From Earliella scabrosa (lineage: Eukaryota > Basidiomycota > Agaricomycetes > Polyporales > Polyporaceae): a DNA stretch of 64,000 bases. This document shows positions 31,381 through 55,076 of this stretch, piece after piece. The stretch spans positions 806,001 through 870,000 of the forward strand of contig JABYQQ010000004.1 of assembly GCA_022605405.1 (NCBI GenBank), written 5' to 3'. Both the position numbers and the translations under genes were made by a program. The first letter of the stretch is position 1. The number at the start of each line of letters is the position of its first letter. The notes beneath the pieces were generated by a model. That model made no database searches, was not told the origin of the DNA, and worked only from the letters and a program-made list of their open reading frames with translations.

Positions 31381-31391
31381 ACGAGTGGGAG

Positions 31392-31971: not shown

Positions 31972-31976
31972 CACGC

Positions 31977-32496
31977 CACACCACGACGCACCGTGTCCCG
32001 ACGCACCGCACCCCGACATGCCGCGTCCCGACGCACCTCCCTCTGACGCACCGAACAAGGACACTGCCACGACGACCACGCCACACCTCTCCGCGTTGGT
32101 GACGCCCCGCTCCAGGCCGCTCGATCGCGACAAAGCAGCGTTGCTCCGCTCCGTGCATCAAAGAGCTCAGCACCACACTGCACGGCGACCGACTGGCAAT
32201 GCACGCTCATAGCGACCCATTCCGCGACACCCAGCAATCCCCATGCTATTACTCCCGCCGCGCCGCTCTCCTCCGCTTTTAGCGACGCGCGCCCTCCCCG
32301 CCGCACGCCTTTCCTCTCCCTTTCGCTTAGCCTCGCCCGACGCGCGCCTCCCCGCTCCCTTTCGTCGCACCCGTTGTCTCCTCCTTGCCCTTTTCGCTCA
32401 GCCTCGCACGTCGCCCGCTCCTCCCCGCCGCGCCTTTGCCCTTTGCCCCCCCCTGTGCCCTTCCTGCCTCCCGTTCCCTCCACGCCGCTCCACTCT
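31977..32496. other. Short Pro-rich frame and pyrimidine-rich tract, no clear gene
   Basis: The first 240 bases continue a Pro/Asp/Thr-rich open frame that ends at 32212. The rest is strongly C/T-rich. It ends with CCACTCT (32490-32496), one half of a target-site duplication whose other half is now at 51297-51303. Confidence 0.4.
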
Positions 32497-35478
32497 CACC
32501 TGTAGGCTCCATACTTGTATCACAAACCCCCAGACCTGTGGTGCTCCATTGTGACTTTTGGTGGGCCCGAGGTAACACACCTCATCTCACTTGTAACAAG
32601 GGCTTGTCAGAATGGGCTGCACTTGTTAAAAACAGCTCTAGGGCAGTTTGTCACATTTGTGTGTACTTGTAGCTAGTCTTGTAGCTTTATGCCCACTTGT
32701 CAGAATCCGCTCTAGGGCAGTTTGTCACATTTGTGTGTACTTGTAGCTAGTCTTGTAGCTTTATGCCCACTTGTCAGAATCCGCTCTAGGGCAGTTTGTC
32801 ACATTTGTGTGTACTTGTAGCTAGTCTTGTAGCTTTCTGCCCACTTGTCAGAATCCGCTCTAGGGCAGTTTGTCACATTTGTGTGTACTTGTAGCTAGTC
32901 TTGTAGCTTTCTGCCCACTTGTTAGAATCCATATTGGGGTGATCTTGATGGCTTTCCTGGTATAGTAGGGGTGCTTACCTAATGTTGTGGCGCTGTTTGG
33001 GCGCTTTTTTGACGCCCATAAGCGGTAGGTGACCCTATAGAGGGGCTACCTGCTTCCCCTCTAGCTCCTTCAAATCTACACCAATAGGGGTGTATGTGGG
33101 TGCGTTGGGTTCGCATTTTCAGCCTCTATTTGATGGTCGAATGTACAGAAGATAGTGTTCAGAATTGTGGGATTTGCAGCTGTATGTAGCTACTACTATT
33201 TGCTACCTACTGTACATTGGGGGAACCACTGATCCATATTTCACGTACAGGGTACCATTAGATGGGGAAAAATCACAGCTTTCCAACGCACCCTGTATCA
33301 TGGTATAAAATGGAGTAGCAGCGGAGCTATGGCCCAATACATTTTCGCAAAAAGTTGTACCATTGTTTGCCTGATATCTTGGAATATGTTGAATGGTGTG
33401 CCATGCCCTATACACCATTGGAATGGCATCGAGCAGGGCTTTCCAACGGTACCCTGATCACCCCAATCCGTAAAGGTTATCTGACCCTCTCCTCCTGACC
33501 CCATTCCCATCAATCCTCTAATAGCTCTGTGGCATCTCACCCTTTTGGCCTACAACTTTGGGACACACACCATCCAGTATTTATCCTCTGATGTGGGAAG
33601 TATCATGATCTGGTACTGCCTGTGTCATCTGTTCTGGATCTAACATACTTAGCATGCCTCTAGCAGTGCATCACTTATTGTGGACTCAGAACCTTATGGA
33701 TTGTCATGCTGTTTGCTGTATCTTATCAAGGCTTCATAGAAGTATGTCCATCTAGCTCCAGCCATTTAGATGTGCTTTTGATCACACTAGATTCTCTTAT
33801 CAGCTCCCTACCTTGCTCACCACTTAGCAAAAGATCCAGAGCATGATTTGCTCTCACAACCTCAGATAGAGTAGAGACTGATGCTCTACACAATGTGCAA
33901 AAAGAATCATGCCATTTGCTTATGTACTGGCAAAAATATGGTCAGAATGTTTCAGGATGCACTGAATGTGCACTGTAACTACATGCAGTGCACTGCAATG
34001 CTCTGTCAGATAAGCCTGAGAACACATGTTCTGCTATATCTCCACCACTTCTCCACCAATTCACATCATTCTTTTTGCATTGTGTAGTGGCTGTTTGACA
34101 GTATTGTATCTGAAAGTATGAGATCCAAGTATGCTCCAGATCTATTGGTAGGTGGTGAGCAAGGTAGGGAGCTGATAAGAGAATCTAGTGTGATCAAAAG
34201 CACATCTGAATGGCTGGAGCTAGATGGACATACTTCTATGAAGCCTTGATAAGATACAGCAAACAGCATGACAGTCCATAAGATTCTGAGTCCACAATAA
34301 GTGATGCACTGCTAGAGGCATGCTAAGTATGTTAGATCCAGAACAGATGACACAGGCAGTACCAGATCATGATACTTCCCACATCAGAGGATAAATACTG
34401 GATGGTGTGTGTCCCAAAGTTGTAGGCCAAAAGGGTGAGATGCCACAGAGCTATTAGAGGATTGATGGGAATGGGGTCAGGAGGAGAGGGTCAGATAACC
34501 TTTACGGATTGGGGTGATCAGGGTACCGTTGGAAAGCCCTGCTCGATGCCATTCCAATGGTGTATAGGGCATGGCACACCATTCAACATATTCCAAGATA
34601 TCAGGCAAACAATGGTACAACTTTTTGCGAAAATGTATTGGGCCATAGCTCCGCTGCTACTCCATTTTATACCATGATACAGGGTGCGTTGGAAAGCTGT
34701 GATTTTTCCCCATCTAATGGTACCCTGTACGTGAAATATGGATCAGTGGTTCCCCCAATGTACAGTAGGTAGCAAATAGTAGTAGCTACATACAGCTGCA
34801 AATCCCACAATTCTGAACACTATCTTCTGTACATTCGACCATCAAATAGAGGCTGAAAATGCGAACCCAACGCACCCACATACACCCCTATTGGTGTAGA
34901 TTTGAAGGAGCTAGAGGGGAAGCAGGTAGCCCCTCTATAGGGTCACCTACCGCTTATGGGCGTCAAAAAAGCGCCCAAACAGCGCCACAACATTAGGTAA
35001 GCACCCCTACTATACCAGGAAAGCCATCAAGATCACCCCAATATGGATTCTAACAAGTGGGCAGAAAGCTACAAGACTAGCTACAAGTACACACAAATGT
35101 GACAAACTGCCCTAGAGCGGATTCTGACAAGTGGGCAGAAAGCTACAAGACTAGCTACAAGTACACACAAATGTGACAAACTGCCCTAGAGCGGATTCTG
35201 ACAAGTGGGCATAAAGCTACAAGACTAGCTACAAGTACACACAAATGTGACAAACTGCCCTAGAGCGGATTCTGACAAGTGGGCATAAAGCTACAAGACT
35301 AGCTACAAGTACACACAAATGTGACAAACTGCCCTAGAGCTGTTTTTAACAAGTGCAGCCCATTCTGACAAGCCCTTGTTACAAGTGAGATGAGGTGTGT
35401 TACCTCGGGCCCACCAAAAGTCACAATGGAGCACCACAGGTCTGGGGGTTTGTGATACAAGTATGGAGCCTACAGGTG
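32497..35478. mobile_element. Foldback DNA transposon, copy 1
   Basis: 2982-bp near-perfect inverted repeat: arms 32497-33823 and 34152-35478 around a spacer of about 330 bp, with symmetry axis at 33987. Ends are cacctgtag...ctacaggtg. Each arm carries four tandem units of about 74 bp built on cttgtcagaatccgctctag and ggcagtttgtcacatttgtg. A few arm mismatches (for example near 33695 against 34280) are shared with copy 2. No transposase is encoded; 60-80 codon frames in the arms are mirror images. The 7-bp flanks (CCACTCT left, TGCAAGA right) do not match each other but match those of copy 2 crosswise. Confidence 0.93.
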
Positions 35479-37397
35479 TGCAAGAGTAAGTTTCAGTACT
35501 CTCTCACCCAAATGTGCGCCGTTCTTACCGACTGGGGCAGGCGAATCGATGCCTTGCCGAAGAAATTCCAGGATCTTGTCACGTCGTTCGAGTTGCAGAC
35601 GGGTTGGAAAGTGAGCGTCGTTATGGGAGGGATCGTACCCGAGACTGGCACTATGCGAACGCTGTGGTGAGTACAATCTCCAGACTATCATGTGGCAACG
35701 CACAGTCGCTAGTACACGTACCTGAGCTCATGCCGCCTCGCCAGCTTCCACCAAGGGCGTACCCTCAACCTTGGGAACACGTTGCCGGAGGCGTCCTCCC
35801 AATGGCAGCCGTTCTTGGATAGCTACAACTCGTTCCTTGTCAGCTGCTATCGTGAGTGCTCCGAGTCTTTGCTCCCGTCTCCGGATCCGAGTCCAAGGGC
35901 TAACGAGCCGTATTCAAATCAGCGCGAGACGCGGGTGAGAAGTTGCGCGCTGCGTACATGGACAAGTCTGGCAGCGAGCCCCCAAGTTCAGAGGCACCCA
36001 AGAGTTCTGACACGGCCTCAAACGTTCAGAGCCCTCCCGACCCCGTTCCTCCCTCGCAGCCGTCCAACCGTTCTGCGAGCAGCAGCACCGCCACCGTCGC
36101 CAAACCGTCGAGTGCGCCTGTTGAGGACTCGAGCCGCGGGACGTCACCGGACGACGGCGTGAGTTCAGCCTTGACATACGAGCTTGAGCGGCAGGCGAAC
36201 ATACGCAAGGTGCAGGAGGCTTTGAAGCAGCAGTTCGGAGAGGCGACCGCAGCTGCAGCGTCGTTGGAGAAGCCGAAGAAGCGCCCAGCAGCACGCGCGG
36301 TGAAGAAGCAGGGTGACCCTCCCACGTCTGTCACCCGCACCACCCGCTCTACCACCGCGGCCGCCGCGAGTGCTGCGGTAGCGAACGTGTCAGCTCCCGC
36401 CACGAGCCCGACTACAGGACCTACCGCCGCCAGCTCATCCCCGACGACAGTCACGGCGAGTCCCCAGGACGGCCACTCTCACGCTGCAAGCGTAGAGTCC
36501 GGCTCGGAGTCAGCACAACCCACAAGCTCTGGCGATGTGGGTACATCTGGCCCTGAAAGCGCGCCTGGAGACATCGAGAAAGCGGACACGACTGGGAGCG
36601 CGACTGAGTCGATCGATATCCCCGCCAACTCCGAAGCACTTCAGCTTCTCCCAGGTATCCCGGGCCAGGCTGGGACCGCAACGACTTTGGCCGGCCCGAG
36701 CCCTACTGTCTTCGCCGCCGTCGAAGAGCCGCCCATTCCTGGCGACTCTCTCCGGTTCACCGTTGTGGACCCGAACGCGCCCGACTGGCTCCGGGACGCC
36801 CTCGACTATTTCGAGCTGTTTGACGCAGGAGGCCGAGCGTGGTTCGATCTTGTCAACAAGTGGCAAGCATTCGAAATGCACATGGGATACCCGGACGGTC
36901 GAGTAAGTCCCGAAGCAACTGTCTTCTAACTTATGGCTGAAGCTCTCTTCTGGCAGAAAGAGCAAAATCGTCTTCCTCCCGCTCATCGGCCTCAGGAGGT
37001 GGGCGCGTGGATGAAAGACGGGCGCAGCTACGAGAAGCTTCCGGAGATCAACCCGGACGAGTTTCCGCCGCGCTGGAAGGCGTGGTGGAGCTCCCTGCAG
37101 CCCGCCTGCCGCATTACTGACGTGTCTGCCTGGCCGCTTTCACGTGTTGTCCCTCAAAGCCGCAATGAGTGGACGATGCTCTGGCGCGGAGGCCAGTGCG
37201 GCTTGTTCCTTGCTGTCATGGCTCTTGCGTGGTGGCTGGGTGCTGTTATAGAGGCCGGCGAGTCTCTTGAGGACGTGTTCTCGGCAATTGCCGACGTAAG
37301 CTGGGTTCTTGACGCCGCCGGCGAGGCACACAACCTCAAGCGTGCTGCGGAGGACGGCGTTGACTCTATGCCTGCTAAGCGAGTCCATGTCAAGTAG
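35479..37397 (+). pseudogene. Gene X, C-terminal half (KDZ element cargo)
   Basis: Starts directly at the foldback end with TGCAAGA, then a donor (gtaagt at 35486), so the coding part resumes at about 35538 with RIDALPKKFQDLVTSFELQTGWKV. It continues through LNLGNTLPEASSQWQPFLDS, a Ser/Thr/Ala/Pro-rich linker and a conserved end with APDWLRDALDYFELFDAGGR, then PPAHRPQEVGAWMKDGRSYE, a Trp-rich part (WKAWWSSLQPACR) and one hydrophobic stretch (LFLAVMALAWWLGAVI). The stop is at 37395-37397. From memory this matches a widespread transposon-borne Agaricomycete family of unknown function. The N-terminal half lies at 54360-55076 on the other strand. The split and inversion leave no promoter or start codon here. 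Confidence 0.8.
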
Positions 37398-37626
37398 CAC
37401 TGCATCTTATCATTCCTTACGCGTCAATCAATGCAATAGTGTTGCTTTCTGAATTCATAAGTGCGACAATGTCTGATAAGTAATTCTAACAACGTGTAGG
37501 CTGTGCATCTAATACACTGAATGGCGCTTATGAGTCTCTACTGCCCCCAACCCAGCATACTGATGCAATGGAAATTGAGATGAGCTTGCAAATTCCATAC
37601 AGACTGCTCCAGACATTTTGTGATCT

Positions 37627-38385
37627 ACACTATGCCCTGTAGAGGACATTTCAAACATGATGTATCAAAGCAGAACTGATTCAGATATAAATTGCCAGTA
37701 AATATAATGAGTAGCCGGTGGCAGAGTACTATCTGGGCTGGACAATTATCAATATATTCACTGTATACCACAAACGATTCACAAGGATCTAATCTGCCAG
37801 CTGATATAATCGGCGTCCACAGTATCACAATTGATTCACAAGAATCTAATCTGCGGGCTGATATAATCGGCGTCCACAGTATCACAATTGATTCACAAGG
37901 ATCTAATCTGCTGGCTGATATAATCGGCGTCCACAGTATCACAATTGATTCACAAGGATCTAATCTGCGGGCTGATATAATCGGCGTCCACAGTATCACA
38001 ATTGATTCACAAGGATCTAATCTGCTGGCTGATATAATCGGCGTCCACAGTATCACAATTGATTCACAAGGATCTGATCTGCCGGCTGATATAATCGGCG
38101 TCCACAGTATCACAATCGATTCACAAGGATCTAATCTGCCAGCTGATATAATCGGCGTCCACAGTATCACAATTGATTTACAAGGATCTCATCCATCGGT
38201 TTTACAATGTTTCTACAACAGCTGTATATCACAAAGAGTTTCACAACAGGAGGCTGGCAGGCTGTTGTACAACGGTCAGCCTGTAATACAGAAGCCCAGG
38301 GGTTGTACAACAGGGCACCATGAAATACACAACATATGTGCCAGGTTTGTGGTATTTTGTAATACAAAAGTGGTGACCACTGGTG
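37627..38385 (-). repeat. Terminal repeat of the KDZ element with seven 57-bp units (array 1)
   Basis: Seven tandem units of 57 bp built on gatataatcggcgtccacag, tatcacaattgattcacaag and gatctaatctgcc. A unique segment follows, ending tggtgaccactggtg at 38385. It is closely similar to 61076-61878. Next to the end stands aactcct, the reverse complement of the 7 bases after the other copy (AGGAGTT). It is the left terminal repeat of the KDZ transposon, displaced by the inversion. Confidence 0.85.
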
Positions 38386-39749
38386 AACTCCTCTCCCTCG
38401 AACCTCTCTGTCTTCGATCTATCAACCAGCAGCTCTAACGCTAAACCTCGTTCGAGCCGCCGGTCAAGTTCAGCATCTCCCCGTTCGAGCGTATCTGCGA
38501 GCGAGCGGTCGGACGAATCCAATTCTCAAGAATCTACGGCCCCGCTCGGCGCATCCCCAGAAGACGCATTCATTACACCGTTAGTGAGCTCACTGGTTGC
38601 TATGCAATTGCAATCTCGCCCTTCCACACCATGTCCTCCTGGCACACTGCCCCGTACGCACCTTGTCAGACCCCCGTCCATGTTCGTCTTCAGCATTACT
38701 GTTCCTCCTCTGGAAGATTATTCACTGCTCTTGATAGCGCGTCAGAGGTCACCGATGAACTTGAAGACCCCACCAACCCCTTGACCTTCACTGCTCCTCC
38801 GGCCTTGGGCGCCGCCATTCGCCAGATTCAACGCGCTCAAGTAAGCCCTATTGCAATCCTCGCATAGCTTGCGCTTAACGGAGCAACTGCAGGTTCGACT
38901 TGATAAACGGATGCAGGAGCTGGAGACGCAGCTGGCCTCAATGCGGGCTGCATTCGCCACCTCCCTTGAGAGTTCCAAGTCCCTCCTGCTCAAGACACAG
39001 AGTCAGTAGCTCGTTGCCCCGAGACGTGCACGTGTACTCACTCTCATGATAGAAACTATCACTAGCGAGCGTCGTAGCATGGAGAGAACGCAGGTAGGGT
39101 CCGCAACGACTATGGAGACGTTCGGTCGGACTCTCGCCAAAACCCAGCGTGCTGTTGCCACTCTGCAGGCGAAACACACCGCTGACGCGTCGTTGATGGA
39201 GTCCCTGGCTAACGACATAGCCGAAGTCTTGTCCATACAAGAGGAGATGGGGGGCCGACTCAAGCGGCTTGAAGAGTCGGAGAGTGCCATTCGCCTAGAG
39301 ACGGGGCAAACCAGGGAGCTCATCGCCGAGCTGAAGATTGACGACAAGCCCGTTGCTCTTCCTACGATCAACCCTACACTCGCCGATGAACTTGCCATCC
39401 CACAGAGTCAAGTTCAGCCCCTGCTGACTTCGATCCGAGTCGCCGTGGACCTCGGCTTTGAGCACGGCATTGCGAAGGTCTACGAACACGCGGAACGTCT
39501 CACAGCCCATGCGGGCAGTGTCGCGGTCAGTCGCCATGGCTCAGGACAGATGACACGGCTGATTCATGCTTCACTCTGTAGCATTTCGTCACAGCTGCCT
39601 ATCTCTGGTACGGGCCGGTGTACGTCTCCGTGGCTACAAGTCTCGTCGTATTCATGTTCTCCTCGGTATGGCTGTTCTCGTCCCGTACCTTGTCGTCATC
39701 TCCACTGCACAGCGCCAGCTCCATATGGGACGATCTATGAGAAGCTGAC
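38386..39749 (+). pseudogene. Gene Y, C-terminal part
   Basis: The coding frame enters from the transposon edge (NSSPSNLSVFDLSTSSSNAK), is Ser-rich, and continues over several short introns: ALDSASEVTDELEDPTNPLT, then VRLDKRMQELETQLASMRAA and a long coiled coil (KTQRAVATLQAKHTADASLM...EEMGGRLKRLEESESAIRLE). A possible C-terminal membrane helix (VYVSVATSLVVFMFSSVWLF) follows near 39650. No family is recognised. The first exon lies at 61879-62026 on the minus strand. Through the AGGAGTT duplication both parts join in one frame, so this gene was the target of the KDZ insertion. Without its start it is presumably dead. Confidence 0.65.
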
Positions 39750-39925
39750 GAGGAGCTTGCTCATCAATCAATCACTACGTTTCCACTCTATGGCCGGCGG
39801 ACATCTCAATCAAATCGTTTCGATTCTGTATATAAGTCCTTCTGCGTGATTGCTCGTCCGAGAACTTTCACACTCGTCATCGCTGCCTTACTCACAGTGC
39901 TATCCTTGTCAGTTCATGGGGCGAG

Positions 39926-42900
39926 CATGCCTATCTGCACCTGCCCAACCTGTGTGGCGACGTCCACGTACAAGGACGACTTTGGCGATCTACAGCCCGG
40001 TGCGCAGTTCTCTCTGACGGACTACGCGAAGCACATTGTGAGCCAGAAGAAACGCGGGAAGCGCGTTGCCAACATGAAGGTGGAGAATGAGCGCGTTGGT
40101 GCCAACATCGTACTCGCCACGCTGTCAGAACGCGCAGAGCCGTCTCTCCCTGTACGCCACCGCGATACTACAAACGAGGGGGACGTCGGGGTGCATCAAC
40201 CCGTCAACGTTGCAGGGCCTGATCCGCAACAGGCGAGTGCATTTTACAGATAATGCTGCGCCATTGTTCGATAACAGGTGGATCACGCTACACAGCGAGG
40301 AGCAACAGACGAAGTAGTTGCATCAATGCAGGATCTTACTCTCGAGGTACGCCCATCATCCTTCGGTCGATCTCATCCTAAGCTCTGGCGTGGCAGGATA
40401 CCACCAGGGCCCGCATTGTCGAGATGGGGAAGCTGGAAGAACAGATATACCGCCGTGCTCTGCACGTCCCACTTTCGACTCGACTCGTCTTCGAAGCACC
40501 TCCCACTTCTCACGCCGACCCCGTCGGCGTTCCTGCCTCTGTCCCTCAGAACAAGGCTTACTTGGAGTTTCGCTTGTGGTTGGAGGCAAGACAGCGGGAA
40601 CTGGAAACTATGGTATTGCCCCTCGGCAACGCGGACGTCGACGGAAGGCGACGAGCAAATCTCGGGAGGCTCCTGTACCAGCTCACTCGCCTCGGTCATA
40701 TACTCGACGTATCCTGGGACCATGCGAAGATCCTCGCGAAGGTTCCTGGCTACTATGTCCTGCCGGACGTGAAGCAGCCCGTTCTTATTGCACCTCGTGA
40801 GCCCTCTTACATCCGATCTTCCATCCTGCGCACTTATATCGTCCTGGTAGCGCCGAACATCGACAAGCGGCAGTCCCTAGAACCTTTCATACTCGCCGCA
40901 CTTGTCATGGTCACGGTCGTTCACGCGATGGCCGCGGTCTCTCGTCCCGTGGCAGCGTATATCCTCCGGACTCTGCAGGTAGTTCTTATGGGAGCCCTGT
41001 ATTTCGAGAAGCCCAGAAGCACCCCCATACAAGCTGCCTTGATGAAGAGTCTCCCGGGCGATGTACGTACAGCGATGAAGCTCCTCGACCTTGCCCCGGA
41101 CATCGTGACGTATGCATGCTGTAAGACATGCTTCGCCATCTACAAGGCCGATCCTTCCCATCCGGACGATCCCTACCCACGTCACTGTACGCACAAAGCG
41201 CACCCCGACCGGGACCCTTGCAACGAACCCCTGGTCTTCGAGCGAGCCATCGGACCCGTTCGTCGTGGCGGTCCGAGACGTTTCCAATGGCTGCCGTATC
41301 GCACGTATCCGTTCCGCAGTCTCAAGCGCTGGCTTGCAGACCTCCTAATGCGCGCTGGGATCGAGAACTTCATCGTGCAGTCTTGGGAGGCTCCCGAGTA
41401 CCCGGACAAATGGTCGGACTTCATGCAGGCACCTGGCGTACGCAGCTTCGTTGGGCCAGATGGGAAGACTATGTTCTCGGTACAGCGCGACGGCGCGCTC
41501 CATCTCGTCTTTAGCATGAACGTGGACTGGTTCAATCCCGGTGGTAACAGGGCGGCGGGGAAAAGTCGATCGATAGGCGCCGTCTATCTGGCTTGTATGA
41601 ACCTCCCTCCCCACCTGCGATACCGTCCCGAAAACATCTATCTCGCTGCGGTTATCCCCGGGCCTCGCGAACCCTCCATCATTCAGCTCAATCACCTTCT
41701 TCGTCCTTTGGTCGACGAGTTATTGGAATTGTGGCAGCCCGGGATCTTCATACAACGGACGTTCGAGAGGTCTTCTGGGCGGTTGATTCGTGTCGCTGTC
41801 ATCCCCCTCGTTTGCGACCTACCCGCTCTCCGCAAGACCGCGGGCTTTGCCTCGTACACTTCGAAGCACCTCTGCAACTTCTGCCCGCTTCTCGACGACG
41901 ATCTCAACAATGTCGATCGCGCAACTTGGCCGCCGGGAAGTTCGTGGACGGAGCATCTCAACCACGCGAGAGCATGGCGTGACACTCAGACGGCAGAGAG
42001 GCGGACAGCTTTGTTCAAGGCACACGGGATCCGTTGGTCCGAACTACTCCGCCTGCCATACTGGGATCCAACAAGATATGTGCTCGTCGACGCGATGCAC
42101 AACCTGTTCTTGGGCGAACTCCGGCATCACTGTGTCAAGATATGGGGTCTGAAGACCGCAAGCAAGCGCGGAAGAACAGGCAGGTCTGGAGAGCATTCCA
42201 CGGCGCAGCAAGAAGATCACCTCCGGCGTATCCGACGGGGCTGGGAGAACTTGTCGGTCAGTGGGATTTGTCGGGCGAGGCGGGACTACATCACAGCTGT
42301 AGCAAGGCTCAACGGGATCGTCGTCCCTTCACCCAATAAGGCGACAAAGGCCAACTTCGCCGCAGCTATGATTGCCTGGGTATGTAGTCCCTTCATCAGC
42401 TCGCCCGCAGCGTGCTGAATTTCTGCGTGCAGCTCAAGGATCTGCCTGGGGGTATAGCTGCGGTCGGATTCCCTCCTGCTCAAATATACGCCACGAAGGA
42501 GTTCCGTCTTGCCACCGACGAACCGGACTCTCCCAATGATGTCTTCACGAGCCCTGTCCTGGAGGAGCTTCGCAAGGACATTCGTGAGTCGTTCATCCCG
42601 TCTTGGCTGGAGAAGCCGCCATCCAACATCGGCGAAGCTGGTCATGGGAAATTGAAAGCGGATCACTGGCGCACACTCTGCACCGTATCCATGGTGATGA
42701 CCCTTGGACGCCTCTGGGGCACGCGCTACGCACCTCTGGCCGAGTCTCAAGCACTGATCAACTTCATGCATCTCGTCGCCGCCGTCGACCTCTGTACCCG
42801 GCGTTCCATGAGCCCTGATCGCGCCAACTTGTTCGACGTCCACATGGAGGCCTACGTTCGCGGCCTGCGGACCCTTTACGACGCCGATCTCGTCCCCAAT

Positions 42901-43899
42901 CATCATCTGTCACTGCATCTCAAAGATTGCTTGCTCTTGTTCGGTCCTACGCATGGCTGGTGGGCGTTTCCATTTGAACGATACAACGGACTTCTGCAAC
43001 GCTTGAACACCAATAACAAGCCATGTATGAACACTTTTCTCTGCATCCTTATTCTGGATTGTGCTGACTACATTGCAGCGGACATGGTGACGACATTCAT
43101 GCGATACTTCTACCTTGGTGCCGCACTACGGTGGTTGATGGAGGTTTTCGTATGGCCTTGCTTCCCCGAGTTTCGCGACATGGTTGAAGCATTCCGCGGC
43201 GCCTTCCACAGCTATCGGAAGGGAACACAATCGACGGACATACTCTCCTCGCTCAACGTGCCTGACGAAGACTCCCAGCAACGCCGCGCTCGCCCTCAGC
43301 ACCCTTTATCCCTCGACGTCTACGACACGCTTCTTACTCTCATCAATAACACGTCCGACAAACCTTACTCCTCAATCCACGAGGGTGCGATCGGGGAAAA
43401 CGACTACCTCCCTGACATGGCAGAAACGGTTCAAAGTATCGAGCATGGCGGGGTCACATATGCGACGTCAAGCGGAGGCAAACGCAACTCGTTCGTGTTG
43501 TTTACGCGGCGTGCGGGGAGCAACCAGGAGGTTGTGGCAGGTCAGATCACGTCCATCTACTACCATACTCGTGCGGCCGACGACCACTCTACGGTCACGG
43601 AGCCCTTCCTTCTTGTCAAGGCATTCAAGACGCTATCCGATCGTCACGGGGCGTTCGATCCATATACGAACTTTCCAGACGTTCCCACGTGGTTGTGCTA
43701 CAACGAGCTCGACCCACAGGCGCATCTCGTACGGCCGCACGACCTTGTCTCGCACTTCGCCGCCCTCATCTACACCCCACCGGACATCGAGCGCGAGTGC
43801 GTTGTAGTCCGTTCTTTGGACAGGGTTCGTCTCCGCTCAACTCTGGTCTCTGTATTATACTCATCGTTGCTCTACAGAGTTGACCAGCTCATCACGTAA
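39926..43899 (+). CDS. Tnp2-type transposase (CACTA/EnSpm-like)
   Basis: Large multi-exon gene. The N-terminus has a Cys cluster (MPICTCPTCVATSTYKDDFG), followed by KAYLEFRLWLEARQRELETM. The second Cys block CCKTCFAIYKADPSHPDDPY continues with a run of further Cys. The core has SMNVDWFNPGGNRAAGKSRS, the CNFCPLLDDD block and the hallmark RYVLVDAMHNLFLGELRHHC. After an intron near 42380-42435 come SNIGEAGHGKLKADHWRTLC and the C-terminal FGPTHGWWAFPFERYNGLLQ. These match tnp2-type transposases of basidiomycetes (Transposase_21 family) in order. The frames look open, so it may be functional. Element ends CACTA...TAGTG were not found with confidence; a cactacg at 39773 is suggestive only. The exact start (39926) is the first ATG in frame. 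Confidence 0.82.
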
Positions 43900-44130
43900 C
43901 TCATGTATTTATGGCTTGAGATCTCAATCCTTATCGTTCGTCGCATTGCACCACTCTTGTGCGCCGATTTACGCCAAGTTGCGCAGGCGAGTATCGTCGC
44001 ATTTTGTGGAGGGTGTTGCTTTGTACTGTCCATGATCCGAAATGCCACTGATAGCGAACAATCACTCTTTACAGTTTTCACAGTATACAAACCTCTCGTA
44101 TTCTTCCACGTCGCGACACTTTCCTCCAAA

Positions 44131-47100
44131 ATGTCCTCTCTTGACGACCGATCTCCCGGTGGGGGAGGGGAACATCGTGATCGTTCCGCGGCTACAGCAG
44201 CAAGTGAGCGCTTGCGAGCCACTCCGCCGTCAACGGTAAATCCTCCCGACGTGACTTCGCCACCGCCACCAGCGACATTGCACAGCCCTACTCCCGAAAT
44301 GGGTACGGTAGCCTCGTCCGCATCCACAGAGCCCGGCCCATCAGCCCAGCCTATCACTCCTCGCGTTCGTTCCCAGCAATTGGCTTCTGAAGCGTCAACC
44401 ACACTGAGTGGGAACCCTCCTAACCAGAGGCAGCCAAACACAGAGACGTTGACGAGCTCGCTGCACCCTGCGTCGTCAAACATGCCCGGCGGATCTCCTA
44501 CGCCAGCGCCCATCCCCGCCAGTAACGGACTAGCAACTATTGATAACGACTCTGCGCCGAAGCAGGGCAAGAAGAAGAAACGTCGCCCGATTGACGACGT
44601 CACCTTCGAGAACGCGAAGTCGACCAGAACGACCACTCGGGTGCGTGACCTGCCTGCTCCGGACTCGGTCTGTCTTCGTGTACTCATCAACATTGTAGCA
44701 GTGGGCTCCTGCCCTCACACCGGTAGAACCGCCGCCCCAGACCGGGGCGAGACTCAGACGCGCTGCGGCCCAAGCCTCGGAGAAGGAGCGTCGTGAGGCG
44801 GCGGCAGTGGAACCGGAGACAACAACTTCAGAGCCGGAACGTCCTCAGAAGCAGATCAAGCCCTTGGCACGCCCGCAAGGCCAACGGACGCGCCCTCCGC
44901 CTCAACCCCAGTATCCACCGCCGCAGCAGGCGCATCCGCCGCCGCAGCGCGCACATCTTCAGCCACAGCGTCTCCAGCCACAGCGTGGACCTACTCAGCC
45001 ACAGCGTGCGCATCCTCAGCAACCGCAGATGCATCCTCCACTCCAGCAGGGACATCCTCCGCAGCAGTCGTATTCTCAGCTGCAGCAGGGGCATCCAATG
45101 TATCAGCAACCGCGTCTTCCGCTCCAGCAGCCAGAGGCGCATCGTTGGTATCAGCAGGCGCATCGTCCCCTGGGCGGAGATCAACAGGCGTACAACCAAG
45201 CCGTACAACCTCCTACGCAGCTGGCTCCGAGGCCGCCAGTACACCAACAGCCGACCGATTACGCTCAGAACCCCCATCAGCAAAAGGTACTAGGTATTCG
45301 GAATGCCACCCGTACTCACCGCCGTCAGCCGACGCCGCCCAAGTCGCGGCAATGCGCCGCCGAGCACTGGAAAGGTTAGCCCTTGTTGGCAACGGTCGCG
45401 ATGCCACACAGAGCTCGGCGGCGCATCGTCGTCTATCCTGAACTACGGCGGTGGATCGCGTTGAGTTCGCAAGACATGACGGTGCACCGCCACGCTTTCG
45501 CAATGCATGGCGGAGCGCCGCCGCGCTCCGCGATGCATGGCGATGCATTGTCAGCGTTCTAGATGCACCGCCGGAGTATGGACGGAGCTTCTGTAATTAT
45601 AATACATTACAATCATCTTGAGCCACGTTCTGAACACACGCTTATAAAGAGAGCAAACAGTACGGGTTTTCATTAGTACAGTAGAATACAAATTTAACGA
45701 GCACATATCCATACACGAGCCGCCTGGCCAAGCACCAACGAGTCAGACAGAAGTGAAAGCCGTGAGAGCGCAACACCGTCGAAGCGAGAAACCGAGAGGA
45801 CCAGCAGAACAGGTTGCCGAGAGCTCAAGCGTCGTCCGATGGAGGCAAGGACTGCGGCAGAGGAGACGAGCGGGATGGCGAGGCCGGCTGCGAGCCCAGA
45901 GTGATCGATGACAACCCGGCATCGCCATCTTGACGACGACGAGGCGGAGAGAGCCTCCGAGTCCGTAGACTTGTCGGCAGCAGAGGGAGTAGCAGTCAGC
46001 TCGCGCTCGCTTAGAACGATCGTCAGCGTTGTCGAGCAGGTTGAGCAAGGTGCACGACGTACGGGTTCTATTGGCGCCGCGTGCGGCCCATCAAGTTGTC
46101 GCACCCGTGTGCAAGTTCCGCAATCGTCCGATGCGCGAGTGTTGTCTTCGCCTGGACGCGGTCACCAAAGTGTTCCCTGTAGAGCGTCAGTGTGTAGGTG
46201 CTCGTGCGGAACTTAAAAAGGCGTACCTCGGCGTAAGTGATCGTTCGTGAGGTCACACGCACAATATTGTACGTCTGCGCTGAAGGCAGCTTGCAGGGCG
46301 TCTTCTCTTTGCGACAGACGGACCGGTTCACTGAAATGGGTCTCGTCCTGCGCAATTTGAGGACCCGACATGGTGAGATGTGCACGCGAGAGGCCGCACA
46401 ACACGTATGAAGGCATGTTTGGATAGAAAGAGGTATGACGGTCAGTGCCAGTGTATGTATGCACGTATAACTCATGAAATGGGACTCACCTAGCTACCTT
46501 CTCACCATCCGCAACGCTGGCGTGTTGAGCTCATCCGGGGTTGAGCCGTTCGCGACACGGTGTATGCTGCGAGGTTGGAGCCAGAACCTGTCGTGCATGT
46601 TGGTAATGTTGTCTGAAGCGCTGACAGAACCAGACGTTAGCAGTCAGCGAGCTATATGCGCATACACTCACCTTCAAGTCTTCGCGTCGTCGTCCATGAG
46701 AGATGTCGACTGAATCGGACGATGTCTGGCCGGCAGGGGCTATGAGAAGTGGGTAGAGTTTTGTGTTTGTAGAGAGTCTGCTGTTTTCTTGAGGTATCCA
46801 TGGCCGGGAGAAGGGGAGGTAGGTGCGCCGACATGGGCGACGTTGTCAAGTTTCAACCATGACGTATGTGGGATACTAGTGACGGGTGCGATGACTTGCC
46901 TATTTTCCCTCGTCCTGATCCTTATTAGTTCAAGCCTAGGGCGTGCCATGGGGCCGTGAGGAAAAGATTATGGGCGGGAGGAGGGAGATGGTAGTGGAAC
47001 GAAGCCAAGAGGTTTGCAAGAGCACGGCGCAGCGGTGACGCGTTTAAGTGCCGTAGTCACGTGATCGCGGTGGGACGGTCGCCCAGTCTTATCAGAGTTT

Positions 47101-50100
47101 CAGGCTTCAGCGCTTCAGCTCAAATCTGCCGTCCGTGCCGGCGAGGGTTTTTGCACACAGCAGGCCCAGCTCATCGAATGCAACACAAGAGAAGGACACA
47201 TGATGGGAGGAGAGGGCTGCACGACGTGCCGAGGAGGCCCAAATAGTGCGTCGTTCTATTCTCACTCTGCGTTCCACCATACTGACCATCACTGTTGCTA
47301 TCGTAGAATGTGATGACCGTAGAGCCCGAGGTGAGCTTTTCCCAGACCCCACCTCTGCCTCCCAACCTTGCGATTGGGTCCCAAACGGCTCCTTTTTGCT
47401 CGTCTGCACCTCCTGCATCCCCCATCGTCCAGCTGAGGGCGTAGAAGACCGGGAAGAGGAGAGCAGGGTCGGAGTATCTGTCGCGGAGGAGTGCGATCAC
47501 GCTCGCGGGGTGCACGATCACGGATCTCCCTTGACAGTGACAGTCACTGGAGCCGATGCTTGTAAGGGACTCGTGGCGGGGTCGGGCTGCATGCAGTTCA
47601 GGTTCGACGGGCCTGCGGCGTTCTTGTTCATGGGTGCAGGGAGCACTTGTGCGGCGAGCTCTCCGTGCTGCTGGGCCTCAGCTCGCGCGTCGTGACTCGT
47701 GCAGCGCGAACACGACACAACCATTGTGCCGGCTGAGAAGAAGCTCAACCTCGAGTAAGTAGGCGGACACAAGTCGCAACGCTGCCGCTATTGCACCACC
47801 GGCTCAGCAGTCGGAGGATGTTCCAGTGGCACCAGTGCTACTCCCGGAGATCGCAGAGGGTGGGTGCATGAGGCGATCGTGCAAGAGCGTACGGCACGGC
47901 ACGGCGCACCTGCCTGAAGCAGACGGCGATGGTGAACGCGAAGACGTACCTAAGAACAAGGACAACGAGTATGGCTGCAGAGCCATCACAGGCAGCGGGG
48001 CCCAGGACTGGACGAGTACTCCCTCAAGGGCCAGTGTGCGCCACCATACTTAAGTGATACTGGCCCTCGATCCGCTGTGACCCGTCGAGCGAGCTCGCGA
48101 ATTGTGCATATACATTTGATTTGATCACCGCATCCACTTGTTACGCTCTCGAGTCTGTGCTACTATCATGTTACACTGAGTATCCAAATGTACTGCTATC
48201 TTACTCATACGTTATCAGAGCTTTGTTATGCATCCCATTAACATCCAATCACTCACGCATATCGTGGCAGTGCATCGCTGGGTACTGCGGATGTTCGCGA
48301 TGCATTGCAGGCATCGCAATGCATCGCGATGCGCCGTGACGCTCCTCAAGACCCCACGGTCCTTCGCGATCCATCGCTACGGTCCGCATTTCTCGGGATG
48401 CCATGTACGGCATCCCACTCATTTTGCACTTTTGCTGATGCCCATCCAATAGCACCAGTCCCACAGTTCCGGCATGTCGACCAGGCAGGATATCCGCCGC
48501 CGCAGTATCCACAGCCTGGAGCGCCGTACGTTCAGCACGGACAACTTCCGGAACAAGCCGCCATGCAACTGCAAAGAGACGTTCAATTCCAACCACCGCC
48601 ACAGATGCAGTACCCGCAAGCTGCTGTCGCCCACGCTTACGAGCAAGGAGACATGGATAACGTGAGCCGTGTGTGGGAGTCGACCATAATCACTGTCTAA
48701 TATTGCGACTGCCTAGCGCGTTCGTCAAGATTACGAGAATTATGGAGAAATACCATACGTCCAGCCATATCCGCTTCAAGAAGCTCCCCCTCGACATGCA
48801 CCGCCCACATCTCAGCGAGCTCGTAAGGCAACTGGCAATGAACATCCAGAGCACCCAAGGAATCGGACTCATGGCGCACCTCCGAGCCGTCACGTTCGAG
48901 AGCGCGCTCATCCTTACGCCGGAAAGCACAGCGCACCACGCAACTCCGCGCATACCGTCAAACTGGCAAAGGTGACTCCGTACTAAGGGCTGCTATGCTA
49001 GCATACTTACTCGTCTCTTACAGACGCTTGCGAAGACAAGAACAGAGAAGAAGCGCGTTATGACGTCGCAGAGTCAACCTCAAGCGACTGAAGGTGACAT
49101 AGCGGACCTCAGCCCGATGGATGAAGACGACGAGCATCTGGACATAGAGCGCGCGGACAAGTCTGACAGCACCGAAGACGGCTGGGGCCCAGAATACGAA
49201 GCGCCACCGTACGATGCCGACGATGCCGACGACGAGGAGACAGAGGACGAAGCTGGGGCTGCTTACGACGACCACTTGGACCGATACATGGAGGAGCTAG
49301 TGAGTGTTGCATCTGCATACGCAGATGTCATCTGACCTGTGTTCCCTCTAGCTCTCAGCGAATGGTGACCAGCAGGATGGGAATCAGCTGGACGCGGACG
49401 AAGGTATGGAAACAGAGGTACCACCGACGTGGGACCACAAGGTACGCCCTCCGCTCAGTTGTACTTGAGTGAATGATTCACGAGACGTGCAGGAGCTCGG
49501 TGGGTCGGGGCAGCTGTTCTTCCACATGCTGGATCAATTCAACACCTGGGTCACGGAGTCGCGCTCCCATAAGTGGGTCCACCTGAATTGAATGCACATT
49601 CATCTAGCTCACACATACTCAGCAACGCGGTGATGAGTCGCATGGGCAAGATCGAGCAGCGCCTCGAACGTATGGAGGCTGAGCGGGCGAGCACCGCTCC
49701 TCCGAAATGGACACCGCCGCAGAAGTCTCGCGCGCCCAAGGCTGCTCGCTCGAAGGCCTCGCGCATCATCATTCCGGAGCCAGAGCCTGGGAAGTCGTAC
49801 AGCCCAGAAGAGATCTCGCAACTGGAAGCCGTAGAGAGAGTGTACTTGAACCGGCTCGCGGTATGTCTTCATGCTAGCTCCTATTGCATTTACCATGTTC
49901 ATCGGCTGGCAGGTTATTACCCGGAGGCACGTCAGGAAGCTTCTGAACGCGCGGACATACGCCGAAATCGCTGAGAAGTGCAAACCTCTCACGGAAGCTG
50001 AACTCGCCGCGTATAACAACACTCCTAAGAACAAGGACTACTTCACGCCGGCCAAGTTCCGCTTCGACGTCTCGCAGTCTTGGACCAAGTCGCCCTTCAA

Positions 50101-50933
50101 TCTCGACGCACGGGACTATTACTGCCGCCATTTACTCCACGCGCTCAAGGGCGGACAATACGATCACGAATCCACGTTCATCCCCGATCGCTACCATACC
50201 ATGTACCATGTCGGCGCCGCCCTGGACTCGCACGTCGACACCATCCGCGCTGAAATTCGCAAGATCCAAGACCCTCACTCGAGCGATGATCCGGACGAGG
50301 ACGCGAGAACAGCGCGAGCGAGAGCACGCAGGACTACGGTGAGACTCATTGATGCCACTCGCAGTGTGCAGCATGCGCTGATGTCATGGTCTACAGCTTC
50401 ATCATCAGCGTGTTGGGGTCATAGTTAACCGAGGTTACGACGAACACCTTGATCTCATCTTGAGATTCGAAGGAAAGAACCACAGCGCAGACGAGAGCGA
50501 CCGTGGTCCGGATGGAAAGAAGCTATCAAGAACGTACTGGATCACGGAATGTGACTGGATGAGCGAGGAGCTGAGGAAATTCCTCCGCAAACTCGACGAG
50601 GCACACTACGACGACTCGTTGAATCTTCCCGAGAAGCAGTCGCAAGGCGGTAGCGGTCCCCGAGAGCGCAAGCCCCGTGATCCCCGCAAGTCTATCGTCG
50701 GCGTTGCCGTGAAAGGTTTATGGCGAAATTGCTATAACCCCGCTTGGCTGGCTACGCTCAAGCGTCACGAGATCCGCGACCTACAAATCATCGACGAGGG
50801 GTACGACTTCACGATCGTGGAGTACAGCGACGAAGAGGAGGAGGAAGAGGAGGAGGAAGAGGAGGAGGAAGAGGAGGAGGAAGAGGAGGAGTATGAAGGG
50901 CCGGAATTCGTGCAAGGAAGTAGCAGGGGATAG
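44131..50933 (+). pseudogene. Gene Z, Pro/Gln-rich protein with acidic tail, interrupted by insertion
   Basis: Starts MSSLDDRSPGGGGEHRDRSA and contains a basic block PKQGKKKKRRPIDDVTFENA. A Gln/Pro/His-rich repeat region (44870-45270) breaks off at 45274 and resumes at 48441 (APVPQFRHVDQAGYPPPQYP). Further exons: SPMDEDDEHLDIERADKSDS, VITRRHVRKLLNARTYAEIA, FDVSQSWTKSPFNLDARDYY, YNPAWLATLKRHEIRDLQII. It ends with an unbroken run of more than 20 Glu (50836-50890). No known domain is seen; low-complexity ends around a conserved 250-residue middle suggest a DNA- or chromatin-associated transposon accessory protein. It lies 230 bases downstream of the Tnp2 gene on the same strand, so it may be its element partner. 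The 3.2 kb insertion probably kills it unless spliced out. Confidence 0.55.
45275..48440. mobile_element. 3.17 kb insertion in gene Z with short inverted ends
   Basis: The segment starts catcagcaaaag and ends cttttgctgatg, a 12-bp perfect terminal inverted repeat. It is flanked by C runs that would allow a 2-bp duplication. Removing it with that duplication rejoins gene Z in frame. Near both ends lie gatgcat-rich motifs in opposite orientation (45495-45555 and 48295-48340). Inside, minus-strand open frames near 46100-46410 and 47100-47990 may be captured gene pieces; none is recognised and no transposase is present. The alternative is a very long intron: aaaag|gtacta and ccaatag|cacc could act as donor and acceptor. 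Confidence 0.5.
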
Positions 50934-51303
50934 AAGCGCGACATGGGGTTGGTAGCTTTTTCCCTCTGGCGAGGTTTTTGATGCACCCAACCATGTACAG
51001 CGCAATGGCAATCGCGTGCATTACGATGTATCTACGTCTGACTTGCTATCTATGTTGGTTCGAACTCGTACGAGTGCGCAACCGGCATTGTAGTTGGGCG
51101 CGGCGCAAATAAGTAGAGTGGTGCGGAGCCTTGTGTTCCAGCGAGCACGGAAGAGGCGACGGCTAGCGCGGTTGTCTTCGCCAACGCCGGAGAAGGCGGG
51201 ACGGCGTAGGGAGGGGCGTGGCGGGGAGAGATGTGAGGGAGAGGATTGCGGAGAGGCGCTGTGGAGGAGCAAGCGCATCAGGGAGGTATTCGGAGCAGAG
51301 TGG
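50934..51303. other. 3' flank of gene Z up to the foldback element
   Basis: Contains the gene Z 3' end and a purine-rich stretch with a short open frame that runs into the foldback element. It ends with AGAGTGG (51297-51303), the reverse complement of the CCACTCT at 32490-32496. Confidence 0.5.
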
Positions 51304-54300
51304 CACCTGTAGGCTCCATACTTGTATCACAAACCCCCAGACCTGTGGTGCTCCATTGTGACTTTTGGTGGGCCCGAGGTAACACACCTCATCTCACTTG
51401 TAACAAGGGCTTGTCAGAATGGGCTGCACTTGTTAAAAACAGCTCTAGGGCAGTTTGTCACATTTGTGTGTACTTGTAGCTAGTCTTGTAGCTTTATGCC
51501 CACTTGTCAGAATCCGCTCTAGGGCAGTTTGTCACATTTGTGTGTATTTGTAGCTAGTCTTGTAGCTTTATGCCCACTTGTCAGAATCCGCTCTAGGGCA
51601 GTTTGTCACATTTGTGTGTACTTGTAGCTAGTCTTGTAGCTTTCTGCCCACTTGTCAGAATCCGCTCTAGGGCAGTTTGTCACATTTGTGTGTACTTGTA
51701 GCTAGTCTTGTAGCTTTCTGCCCACTTGTCAGAATCCGCTCTAGGGCAGTTTGTCACATTTGTGTGTACTTGTAGCTAGTCTTGTAGCTTTCTGCCCACT
51801 TGTTAGAATCCATATTGGGGTGATCTTGATGGCTTTCCTGGTATAGTAGGGGTGCTTACCTAATGTTGTGGCGCTGTTTGGGCGCTTTTTTGACGCCCAT
51901 AAGCGGTAGGTGACCCTATAGAGGGGCTACCTGCTTCCCCTCTAGCTCCTTCAAATCTACACCAATAGGGGTGTATGTGGGTGCGTTGGGTTCGCATTTT
52001 CAGCCTCTATTTGATGGTCGAATGTACAGAAGATAGTGTTCAGAATTGTGGGATTTGCAGCTGTATGTAGCTACTACTATTTGCTACCTACTGTACATTG
52101 GGGGAACCACTGATCCATATTTCACGTACAGGGTACCATTAGATGGGGAAAAATCACAGCTTTCCAACGCACCCTGTATCATGGTATAAAATGGAGTAGC
52201 AGCGGAGCTATGGCCCAATACATTTTCGCAAAAAGTTGTACCATTGTTTGCCTGATATCTTGGAATATGTTGAATGGTGTGCCATGCCCTATACACCATT
52301 GGAATGGCATCGAGCAGGGCTTTCCAACGGTACCCTGATCACCCCAATCCGTAAAGGTTATCTGACCCTCTCCTCCTGACCCCATTCCCATCAATCCTCT
52401 AATAGCTCTGTGGCATCTCACCCTTTTGGCCTACAACTTTGGGACACACACCATCCAGTATTTATCCTCTGATGTGGGAAGTATCATGATCTGGTACTGC
52501 CTGTGTCATCTGTTCTGGATCTAACATACTTAGCATGCCTCTAGCAGTGCATCACTTATTGTGGACTCAGAACCTTATGGATTGTCATGCTGTTTGCTGT
52601 ATCTTATCAAGGCTTCATAGAAGTATGTCCATCTAGCTCCAGCCATTTAGATGTGCTTTTGATCACACTAGATTCTCTTATCAGCTCCCTACCTTGCTCA
52701 CCACTTAGCAAAAGATCCAGAGCATGATTTGCTCTCACAACCTCAGATAGAGTAGAGACTGATGCTCTACACAATGTGCAAAAAGAATCATGCCATTTGC
52801 TTATGTACTGGCAAAAATATGGTCAGAATGTTTCAGGATGCACTGAATGTGCACTGTAACTACATGCAGTGCACTGCAATGCTCTGTCAGATAAGCCTGA
52901 GAACACATGTTCTGCTATATCTCCACCACTTCTCCACCAATTCACATCATTCTTTTTGCATTGTGTAGTGGCTGTTTGACAGTATTGTATCTGAAAGTAT
53001 GAGATCCAAGTATGCTCCAGATCTATTGGTAGGTGGTGAGCAAGGTAGGGAGCTGATAAGAGAATCTAGTGTGATCAAAAGCACATCTGAATGGCTGGAG
53101 CTAGATGGACATACTTCTATGAAGCCTTGATAAGATACAGCAAACAGCATGACAGTCCATAAGATTCTGAGTCCACAATAAGTGATGCACTGCTAGAGGC
53201 ATGCTAAGTATGTTAGATCCAGAACAGATGACACAGGCAGTACCAGATCATGATACTTCCCACATCAGAGGATAAATACTGGATGGTGTGTGTCCCAAAG
53301 TTGTAGGCCAAAAGGGTGAGATGCCACAGAGCTATTAGAGGATTGATGGGAATGGGGTCAGGAGGAGAGGGTCAGATAACCTTTACGGATTGGGGTGATC
53401 AGGGTACCGTTGGAAAGCCCTGCTCGATGCCATTCCAATGGTGTATAGGGCATGGCACACCATTCAACATATTCCAAGATATCAGGCAAACAATGGTACA
53501 ACTTTTTGCGAAAATGTATTGGGCCATAGCTCCGCTGCTACTCCATTTTATACCATGATACAGGGTGCGTTGGAAAGCTGTGATTTTTCCCCATCTAATG
53601 GTACCCTGTACGTGAAATATGGATCAGTGGTTCCCCCAATGTACAGTAGGTAGCAAATAGTAGTAGCTACATACAGCTGCAAATCCCACAATTCTGAACA
53701 CTATCTTCTGTACATTCGACCATCAAATAGAGGCTGAAAATGCGAACCCAACGCACCCACATACACCCCTATTGGTGTAGATTTGAAGGAGCTAGAGGGG
53801 AAGCAGGTAGCCCCTCTATAGGGTCACCTACCGCTTATGGGCGTCAAAAAAGCGCCCAAACAGCGCCACAACATTAGGTAAGCACCCCTACTATACCAGG
53901 AAAGCCATCAAGATCACCCCAATATGGATTCTAACAAGTGGGCAGAAAGCTACAAGACTAGCTACAAGTACACACAAATGTGACAAACTGCCCTAGAGCG
54001 GATTCTGACAAGTGGGCAGAAAGCTACAAGACTAGCTACAAGTACACACAAATGTGACAAACTGCCCTAGAGCGGATTCTGACAAGTGGGCATAAAGCTA
54101 CAAGACTAGCTACAAGTACACACAAATGTGACAAACTGCCCTAGAGCGGATTCTGACAAGTGGGCATAAAGCTACAAGACTAGCTACAAGTACACACAAA
54201 TGTGACAAACTGCCCTAGAGCTGTTTTTAACAAGTGCAGCCCATTCTGACAAGCCCTTGTTACAAGTGAGATGAGGTGTGTTACCTCGGGCCCACCAAAA

Positions 54301-54359
54301 GTCACAATGGAGCACCACAGGTCTGGGGGTTTGTGATACAAGTATGGAGCCTACAGGTG
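51304..54359. mobile_element. Foldback DNA transposon, copy 2
   Basis: 3056-bp copy, nearly identical to copy 1 and in the same orientation by its asymmetric spacer. It is 74 bp longer because the left arm has five instead of four subterminal units. Ends are cacctgtag...ctacaggtg. The flanks AGAGTGG (left) and TCTTGCA (right, 54360-54366) do not match each other. They are the reverse complements of copy 1's left and right flanks respectively. Confidence 0.93.
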
Positions 54360-55076
54360 TCTTGCAGCGTCCGAGCTCGCTTGCGACGCTCGCTCGGACT
54401 AACCTCCGACGCCTGATCAATGAACATTTCCAGCCCATCCTCCTCAGGATTTTTGAGACGAGCGGCCTCAACCGCGTTACGGACGTCCAGCGGCTCCTCC
54501 TCGAGCATCTTTTTAGCCGTCTCGCTCATGAACGAGAGCCACGAGCGCGGCTTAGCGTCCGCAGGTAAGTCGTTCTTGTACTCTTGGAAGCGTTCTTTGA
54601 TGATTGGGAGAACACGGTCCTGGTATAGCGTGATGTACGCTTGGTAGGCCTGGAGTCGTACCGTCTTCTTAGGCGCCGCGTTGAGGTCGAGTCCACCGTC
54701 GGACTCCTTCTCCGTTGTCGCCCCTCCGCCCCTCTTATTGTAAAACCACCAGTACACTTGCTGTTGTGGGACGTACACGTGAGTCCTGTGCAATTTGTCG
54801 CGTCCGACTGCGACAAGCACTCACTTTCTTCCTCTCGAACGCCGACAGACTCGTCACTTGACCGTTCTCGTCGTGCTCAGTCTTCAAGATCACAAGCTTT
54901 GCAGCCGCCTTGTCCGCCGGGATGACGACTCCAGGGAAGAACGCGTCGAAGTACTCTTGCTGGGCGATCTGTATGAACGTCGTCGTGGTCCCCTGTGCGC
55001 GCGCGCAGTTCCACGCGCCCACGCGTGCTTCGAGGAACTTCTGCTCCTCCGCGTTTGCCCAGGACGGTCGAGGCAT
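54360..55076 (-). pseudogene. Gene X, N-terminal half (KDZ element cargo)
   Basis: The start at 55076 gives MPRPSWANAEEQKFLEARVG, followed by TTFIQIAQQEYFDAFFPGVV. A junction near 54830 (exact splice not settled) leads to VYVPQQQVYWWFYNKRGGG, then LQAYQAYITLYQDRVLPIIK, a helical Glu/Lys-rich part and SERRKRARTLQ. There the coding sequence is cut by the foldback element at TCTTGCA. The C-terminal half is at 35479-37397 in opposite orientation. The break lies in the last codons of an exon. The gene is divergent from the next gene (336 bases between starts), as expected for a shared promoter inside a transposon. The function of the family is unknown. Confidence 0.75.

Follow-up and report, generated by a model that had tools for sequence, protein, structure and literature searches.

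The genome of the polypore Earliella scabrosa (assembly GCA_022605405.1, 51.67 Mb in 48 contigs, here treated as intron-bearing) carries two near-perfect palindromes, 15.8 kb apart, in a 64,000-bp stretch of contig C4 (JABYQQ010000004.1, bases 806001-870000). We refer to this stretch as the window, and its positions are used below unless a contig is named. Both palindromes are foldback-type elements, recognisable by a short core between very long inverted arms that contain tandem repeats. Copy 1 (2982 bp; 32497-35478; tips CACCTGTAGG..CCTACAGGTG) has identical arms of ~1.2 kb, and copy 2 (3056 bp; 51304-54359) has its core oriented as in copy 1. In both, arms of ~1195 bp surround a 592-bp core, located at 33692-34283 in copy 1 and at 52573-53164 in copy 2, and in direct orientation the one core matches the other at 100%. 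The core itself is asymmetric; its self-complementarity is only 79%, with 148 asymmetric columns in an alignment of 596. Each arm includes a subterminal array of 74-bp units. This array spans 4.2 units in the left and right arms of copy 1 (32620-32930 and 35045-35355) and in the right arm of copy 2 (53926-54236), and 5.2 units in the left arm of copy 2 (51427-51811). One base and one 74-bp unit, both within an array, are the sole differences between the copies. Outside the arrays, the arms have no variable sites between the two window copies, hence chimerism is not visible.

Copy 1 lies between CCACTCT (32490-32496, plus strand) and TGCAAGA (35479-35485, minus strand with respect to its partner), and copy 2 lies between AGAGTGG (51297-51303, likewise minus) and TCTTGCA (54360-54366, plus). 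These are exactly the positions and letters given by a sequence-only reading of the window that preceded this analysis. In neither copy do the two flanks share a base at any position (0/7). Between the copies, the two left flanks are mutually reverse complementary, and so are the two right flanks, such that CCACTCT and AGAGTGG form the halves of one target duplication, while TGCAAGA and TCTTGCA form the halves of another. Turning the intervening segment (35479-51303; 15,825 bp, minus strand) back in silico results in two perfect 7-bp duplications, as that reading had proposed. Calculated from 7-mer frequencies in the window itself, a single crosswise flank match has a chance of 8.0e-5, and both together have one of 6.4e-9. 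The exchanged duplications, the sibling controls, the paralogues of both junctions, and the restored duplication of a third transposon, all discussed below, strongly support a 15.8-kb inversion between the two foldback elements.

The third transposon, which carries a KDZ transposase domain, is cut in two. Its subterminal repeats are the 57-bp arrays at 37769-38193 and 61202-61686, which are now on the same (plus) strand and turn inverted upon re-inversion, as had been pointed out earlier. The tips of this transposon (CACCAGTGGTCACCACTTTTG) presently both face right, at 38385 and 61878, and are followed by AACTCCT (38386-38392, minus strand) and AGGAGTT (61879-61885, plus strand), respectively. 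Re-inversion generates proper left and right ends with the perfect 7-bp duplication AGGAGTT, and the first 617 terminal bases match each other at 97.4%. With AGGAGTT included, the chance for three restored duplications, on the same 7-mer frequencies, is 5.1e-13. The flipped piece of the transposon (35479-38385, minus strand) ends with the tip CACCAGTGGTCACC on the minus strand at 38385, and the unflipped piece (54360-61878, plus strand) ends with the same tip at 61878. The unflipped piece encodes, on the plus strand, a CxC2 cysteine cluster associated with KDZ transposases (57486-57977; E 2.6e-36) and the C-terminal part of the KDZ transposase domain (58648-59070; E 8.4e-34). A second gene of this transposon, gene Y, is cut at the breakpoint, with one open piece at 54362-54820 (minus strand) and the rest on the flipped piece at 35479-37394 (plus strand). 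Upon re-inversion the two open pieces join, and a paralogue on contig C1 is contiguous, which supports the earlier suggestion that the halves of gene Y belong together. Gene Y can be described as a conserved open frame carried by the transposon; the pieces tested gave no Pfam match, and the joined protein had no homologue at E <= 1e-3 among 7986 candidates scored. The sequence-only reading had counted four independent signals of the inversion. The 57-bp arrays and gene Y, however, do not count separately, as both belong to the one KDZ transposon that was split. With both of its ends now pointing the same way after the inversion, this transposon should no longer move as a unit. Elsewhere inside the inverted segment, outside the KDZ transposon, an open reading frame at 40424-42418 has a tnp2-type domain (Transposase_21, E 8.3e-15), and we take it to resemble Plavaka.

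Unflipped relatives of both junctions are present in the genome, as paralogues and not as orthologues, and at both the unflipped sequence has a single target copy. The joined left junction aligns with C4:935707-936589 over 883 bp, gap-free and at 98.98% identity, and this unflipped, empty site has a single CCACTCT. Copy 1 had entered a repeat unit, and the C4 paralogue identifies 31972-32496 (plus strand) as the left piece of that unit and 50939-51303 (minus strand) as its other piece, now at the far end of the inversion. It had also been suggested that the halves of a "gene X" are rejoined at this junction. We could not confirm this gene, since the junction lies in the repeat unit and the cross-junction frames look low-complexity; the contiguous 99% paralogue of the repeat unit is the better evidence. 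This repeat unit of ~1.7 kb (24578-25436, 31972-32496, and 50939-51303) carries a foldback-like tip at just one of its ends and stops abruptly at the other, and its two copies, in the window and at the second locus, break at the same place. The joined right junction falls within a 739-column alignment to C1:5179620-5180335 (67.5% identity), which sits within another KDZ element. In the local alignment, 28 gap-free bases surround the junction, with small gaps beyond and identities of 67/95 and 64/95 on the two sides. The window reads TGCAAGA/GTAAGT where the C1 paralogue reads TACAAGA/GTGAGT, i.e., with TACAAGA as the single target copy in place of TGCAAGA, and by eye the junction is probably the end of an exon and the GT start of an intron. 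Alignments with the paralogues detected no lost bases at either junction.

Sibling elements show what flanks these foldbacks elsewhere in the genome. A search with the tips gave 11 matches, which are both ends of five full-length copies (including the two window copies) plus one single end. Outside the window, the subfamily has three full-length copies, and each of them is flanked by a perfect 7-bp duplication (CAGATAC, GGGTCAT, and GCTAACA). A wider tip pattern identified 100 sites; as a reversed control pattern gave 26 matches, part of the 100 is due to chance. With tips alike at >=18/20 bases and 0.5-15 kb apart, there are 25 distinct tip pairs, and the flanks match at 7/7 in 17 of them. 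The copy on C14, the left tip of which was missed by the pattern, also has a matching duplication. The eight exceptions comprise the two window copies, C4:2480175 with 5/7, and five pairs with 1-3/7 (two on C2, two on C3, and one on C23). Among these unmatched tip pairs, a crosswise match at both ends is found only for the window copies. The crosswise comparison left out 10 tips with the flank GGTAAAGACT (a repeat carrying a tip), and one further candidate partner of C1:896137 does not enter the counts. Matching duplications also flank the pair C28:18112-28984; with tips alike at 15/20 bases only, and having been spotted through the match, this pair is kept outside the counts as well. Had the four window 7-mers been common flanks of unrelated copies, the argument from exchanged duplications would be weaker, as the sequence-only reading noted. 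Each of the four occurs once among the 100 listed tip flanks, at the four window ends, and at none of the other tips.

Several of the unmatched pairs can be described in their own right. Two foldbacks on C3 (1665726-1668641 and 1735544-1738575) have reverse complementary right flanks (CTGGTGG and CCACCAG) and unmatched left flanks. They were considered as a second exchanged pair, on the basis of the right ends at 1668641 and 1738575, but the left ends do not match and the 7-mer resembles the element tip; the right-end match may reflect an older rearrangement or chance. Foldback-like tip pairs at C2:1114026-1116747, C2:2593823-2596498, and C23:245937-248863 have differing 7-bp flanks and are candidates for further rearrangements or for decayed duplications.

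Collectively, these data are best accounted for, and we consider it probable, by a model in which two foldbacks inserted in the same orientation and a crossover between their arms then inverted the 15.8 kb. In this model, two near-identical palindromic non-autonomous transposons, probably mobilised by a KDZ transposase, would have inserted with the same core orientation, one in the repeat unit and the other in gene Y of the KDZ transposon. Homologous and reciprocal crossing-over, with the left arm of one element pairing with the right arm of its partner, would then have inverted the DNA between them, thereby swapping the 7-bp target duplications and cutting the KDZ transposon in two with no detectable loss of bases. 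The crossing arms would be inverted relative to each other under any orientation of the elements. The earlier statement that palindromic elements invert the intervening DNA whatever their orientation fits what we see, as the two copies share core orientation, where ordinary elements would give no inversion. Moreover, an arm crossover keeps the cores parallel if they were parallel before, and the observed parallel, asymmetric cores are consistent with this. Recombination between arms is suggested elsewhere in the genome as well. Apart from the arrays, only 3 of 884 columns vary over the 10 arms of five copies, whereas the cores differ from copy 1 by 1.5-4.7%. In the core of the copy at C30:312063-315562, all 33 differences from copy 1 are the mirror base, and columns 392-463 hold 30 of these differences, such that a tract of ~72 alignment columns equals the mirror-image half. 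Such a tract would be expected from gene conversion between the halves of a single palindrome; the pattern is clear in this one copy only.

The geometry of the cores bears on the other ways in which such an inversion might arise. Long palindromes are known to break, and both elements might have broken at their centres through cruciform cleavage, with the ends joined in inverted order. By our own derivation, however, parents in the same orientation would then give symmetric cores and parents in opposite orientation would give opposite cores, whereas the observed cores are asymmetric and parallel; we therefore consider breakage of this kind very improbable. Recombination between opposite copies would, by the same derivation, leave opposite cores. 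In a hybrid-element insertion, the ends of two sister copies of one element transpose together to a second site, resulting in an inversion with exchanged duplications. The near-identity of the two copies and the lack of junction loss both agree with this model, which gives identical copies and an outcome described, for the Drosophila case, as strikingly similar to that of ectopic recombination [part of Delprat et al. 2009, PMC2775673]. It would, however, leave the copies in opposite orientation according to our derivation, and the cores here have the same orientation; for this to result, one core would have to have flipped later, through recombination of that copy's own two arms. The simple form is thus disfavoured by the core geometry, as is centre breakage, and we give hybrid-element insertion little weight overall. 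Coincidence, or a sequence preference of the transposase, as the source of the flank matches finds a parallel in the one other crosswise 7-mer match, that between the two right ends on C3, where the left ends do not match. Against this stand the joint chances given above (6.4e-9 for two and 5.1e-13 for three duplications), the sibling copies, the absence of the four 7-mers from the other listed tips, and the un-inverted paralogues of both junctions. Together, they rule out coincidence for practical purposes.

An error of assembly has to be weighed separately, in which the organism would be un-inverted and the assembler would have flipped the segment between two 3-kb inverted repeats. The two ~1.2-kb arms of copy 1 are identical, those of copy 2 are nearly identical, as are the arms of one copy to those of the other, and the genomic signs of the ancestral order would look the same in this case. 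On the other hand, the assembly consists of 48 contigs for 51.67 Mb, with contigs reaching 5.4 Mb, and the window is free of N. It also includes a copia-type long terminal repeat (LTR) retrotransposon of 6.5 kb (25437-31971), with 580-bp LTRs that are 99.8% identical and CACGC on both sides. The 3' part of this retrotransposon has at least 38 near-identical copies elsewhere in the genome (40 of 130 candidates scored). A multicopy element placed with matching duplications indicates that spans of >3 kb were resolved in the window. Furthermore, one base and one 74-bp unit tell the two foldback copies apart, and searches with the two flanks of the right junction turned up no second copy close to identity and, accordingly, no contig carrying the alternative order. 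We infer that the inverted arrangement is present in the organism and not just in the assembly, and we regard a misassembly as unlikely.

Several points weigh against inversion by arm crossover and have to be set beside the evidence for it. The near-identity of the window copies is what hybrid-element insertion predicts and is also what would favour misassembly. Identical arms leave no room for the test of chimerism that was applied to Galileo. A missing duplication is not diagnostic on its own, since imperfect flanks are likewise seen in 6 of the 23 pairs of tips located elsewhere than in the window (5/7 in one, 1-3/7 in five). The unflipped states are seen in paralogues and not at the same locus of another strain, and the evidence comes from one assembly of one strain, as assembled sequence only. 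Finally, the share of core differences that equal the mirror base is low in two of the sibling copies, 2/10 in the copy on C8 and 3/10 in that on C21.

The transposase that moved the foldbacks was likely of the KDZ type. Genome-wide, 129 matches to the KDZ domain were counted, exon by exon, and 0 of 14 control genomes had such matches. Together with the KDZ and CxC domains of the window, its tnp2-type transposase, and the probable GT intron start at the right junction, these matches point to a basidiomycete. Of the 17 tip pairs whose duplications match at 7/7, three contain KDZ domains (C1:59352-70757, C1:5176998-5188050, and C25:665423-676828), as do the less certain pair C28:18112-28984 and the restored window element. 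Among tip pairs >7 kb with perfect duplications, 5 of 8 have no KDZ match. The tips conform to a single pattern, CACCNGTRG..CCA, and the window foldbacks have 7-bp duplications and CA..TG termini as in KDZ (Kyakuja-like) elements. The C3 foldbacks have 85 terminal bases in common with the KDZ element on C1 at 92.9%; the link between the window foldbacks and those on C3 consists only of arm pieces of 89-153 bp at 70-81% and the tip pattern. The foldbacks thus look like non-autonomous relatives of KDZ transposons. Similar tips, 7-bp duplications, links through arm pieces, and KDZ domains within matching tip pairs make mobilisation of the window copies by KDZ likely, albeit on indirect evidence. 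The transposase seen within matching tips is KDZ; no search for the P type was made. Two long foldback copies were considered as the autonomous partner and rejected. The insert in the 9.4-kb copy on C21 is an LTR retrotransposon of the window's copia family, and the open frame in the 10.5-kb copy at C4:2480175 is, by eye, a gypsy-type polyprotein. It is the split element that provides a putative partner, of the KDZ type.

Foldback elements of other eukaryotes, such as Tetris and Tm1, reportedly also have long, internally repetitive inverted arms and a short core, and are said to belong to other superfamilies (Tm1, by title, to Mutator). The segment inverted here is short (15.8 kb), and Drosophila inversions are far larger. 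The closest parallels are the Galileo inversions 2j, 2q7, and 2z3 of Drosophila buzzatii, as presented in part of Delprat et al. [2009, PMC2775673]. Like 2z3 there, the present case has two long-armed foldback-like copies at the breakpoints, 7-bp target duplications that have been exchanged between them, one target copy only in the unflipped state, and no deletion or duplication. However, Galileo belongs to the P superfamily, while the likely partner here is KDZ. According to the same part of that study, the middle segments in 2z3 are opposite and the chimeric arms visible, whereas the cores here are parallel and the arms too similar for chimerism to be seen; Galileo targets resemble GTAGTAC, whereas the targets here are varied.

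With respect to transposase family, Kyakuja elements, a branch of KDZ known from Agaricomycotina, share 7-bp duplications, CA..TG termini, and a KDZ transposase with the elements described here, while Zisupton has 8-bp duplications [sections of Kojima 2025, PMC12730594]. Two Laccaria Kyakuja families are given in these sections as having no terminal inverted repeats (TIRs). In contrast, TIRs of several hundred bases, subterminal arrays, and foldback relatives are found here; the TIRs of the split KDZ element are ~0.6 kb, and the KDZ elements on C1 and C25 also have long ones. KDZ1-3 of Cryptococcus neoformans are, like the KDZ elements here, 9-11 kb long with a KDZ domain and TIRs. As partially documented [PMC12810828], their TIRs are 139-241 bp, they have a CxC1 domain, and their duplications are 8 bp (KDZ1) or 4-8 bp (KDZ2 and KDZ3); here, the best match is CxC2, the duplications are 7 bp, and the TIRs are longer. 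At the Cryptococcus mating-type locus, basidiomycete inversions have been attributed to near-identical repeats, as here. These repeats are pheromone genes, and in the parts of the paper that mention KDZ elements, these are noted only as insertions in the locus [PMC12510652].

The kind of event is already known from Galileo in Drosophila; what is new relative to it, within the literature searched, is the link to KDZ, the parallel orientation of the cores, and the third transposon that was split. Full-text literature searches, in which most subscription journals were not covered, found no description of KDZ-related foldbacks recombining ectopically. If the inversion is real, it would be a transposon-made rearrangement that can be reconstructed from a single genome, through two exchanged duplications, a third that was split, and unflipped paralogues that serve as internal controls. 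A further suggestion is that the relatives of KDZ transposons include palindromic ones with arms that undergo ectopic recombination. Five orders of Agaricomycotina are reported to harbour Kyakuja families that carry TET [Kojima 2025, PMC12730594]. Since such elements invert DNA under any orientation, foldbacks could be a frequent, and testable, source of structural variation in Agaricomycotina. The pair in the window could flip again, and more speculatively it may act as a reversible switch, recombining repeatedly such that the segment flips between nuclei or strains, with KDZ-derived foldbacks forming orientation-independent inversion sites throughout the genome.

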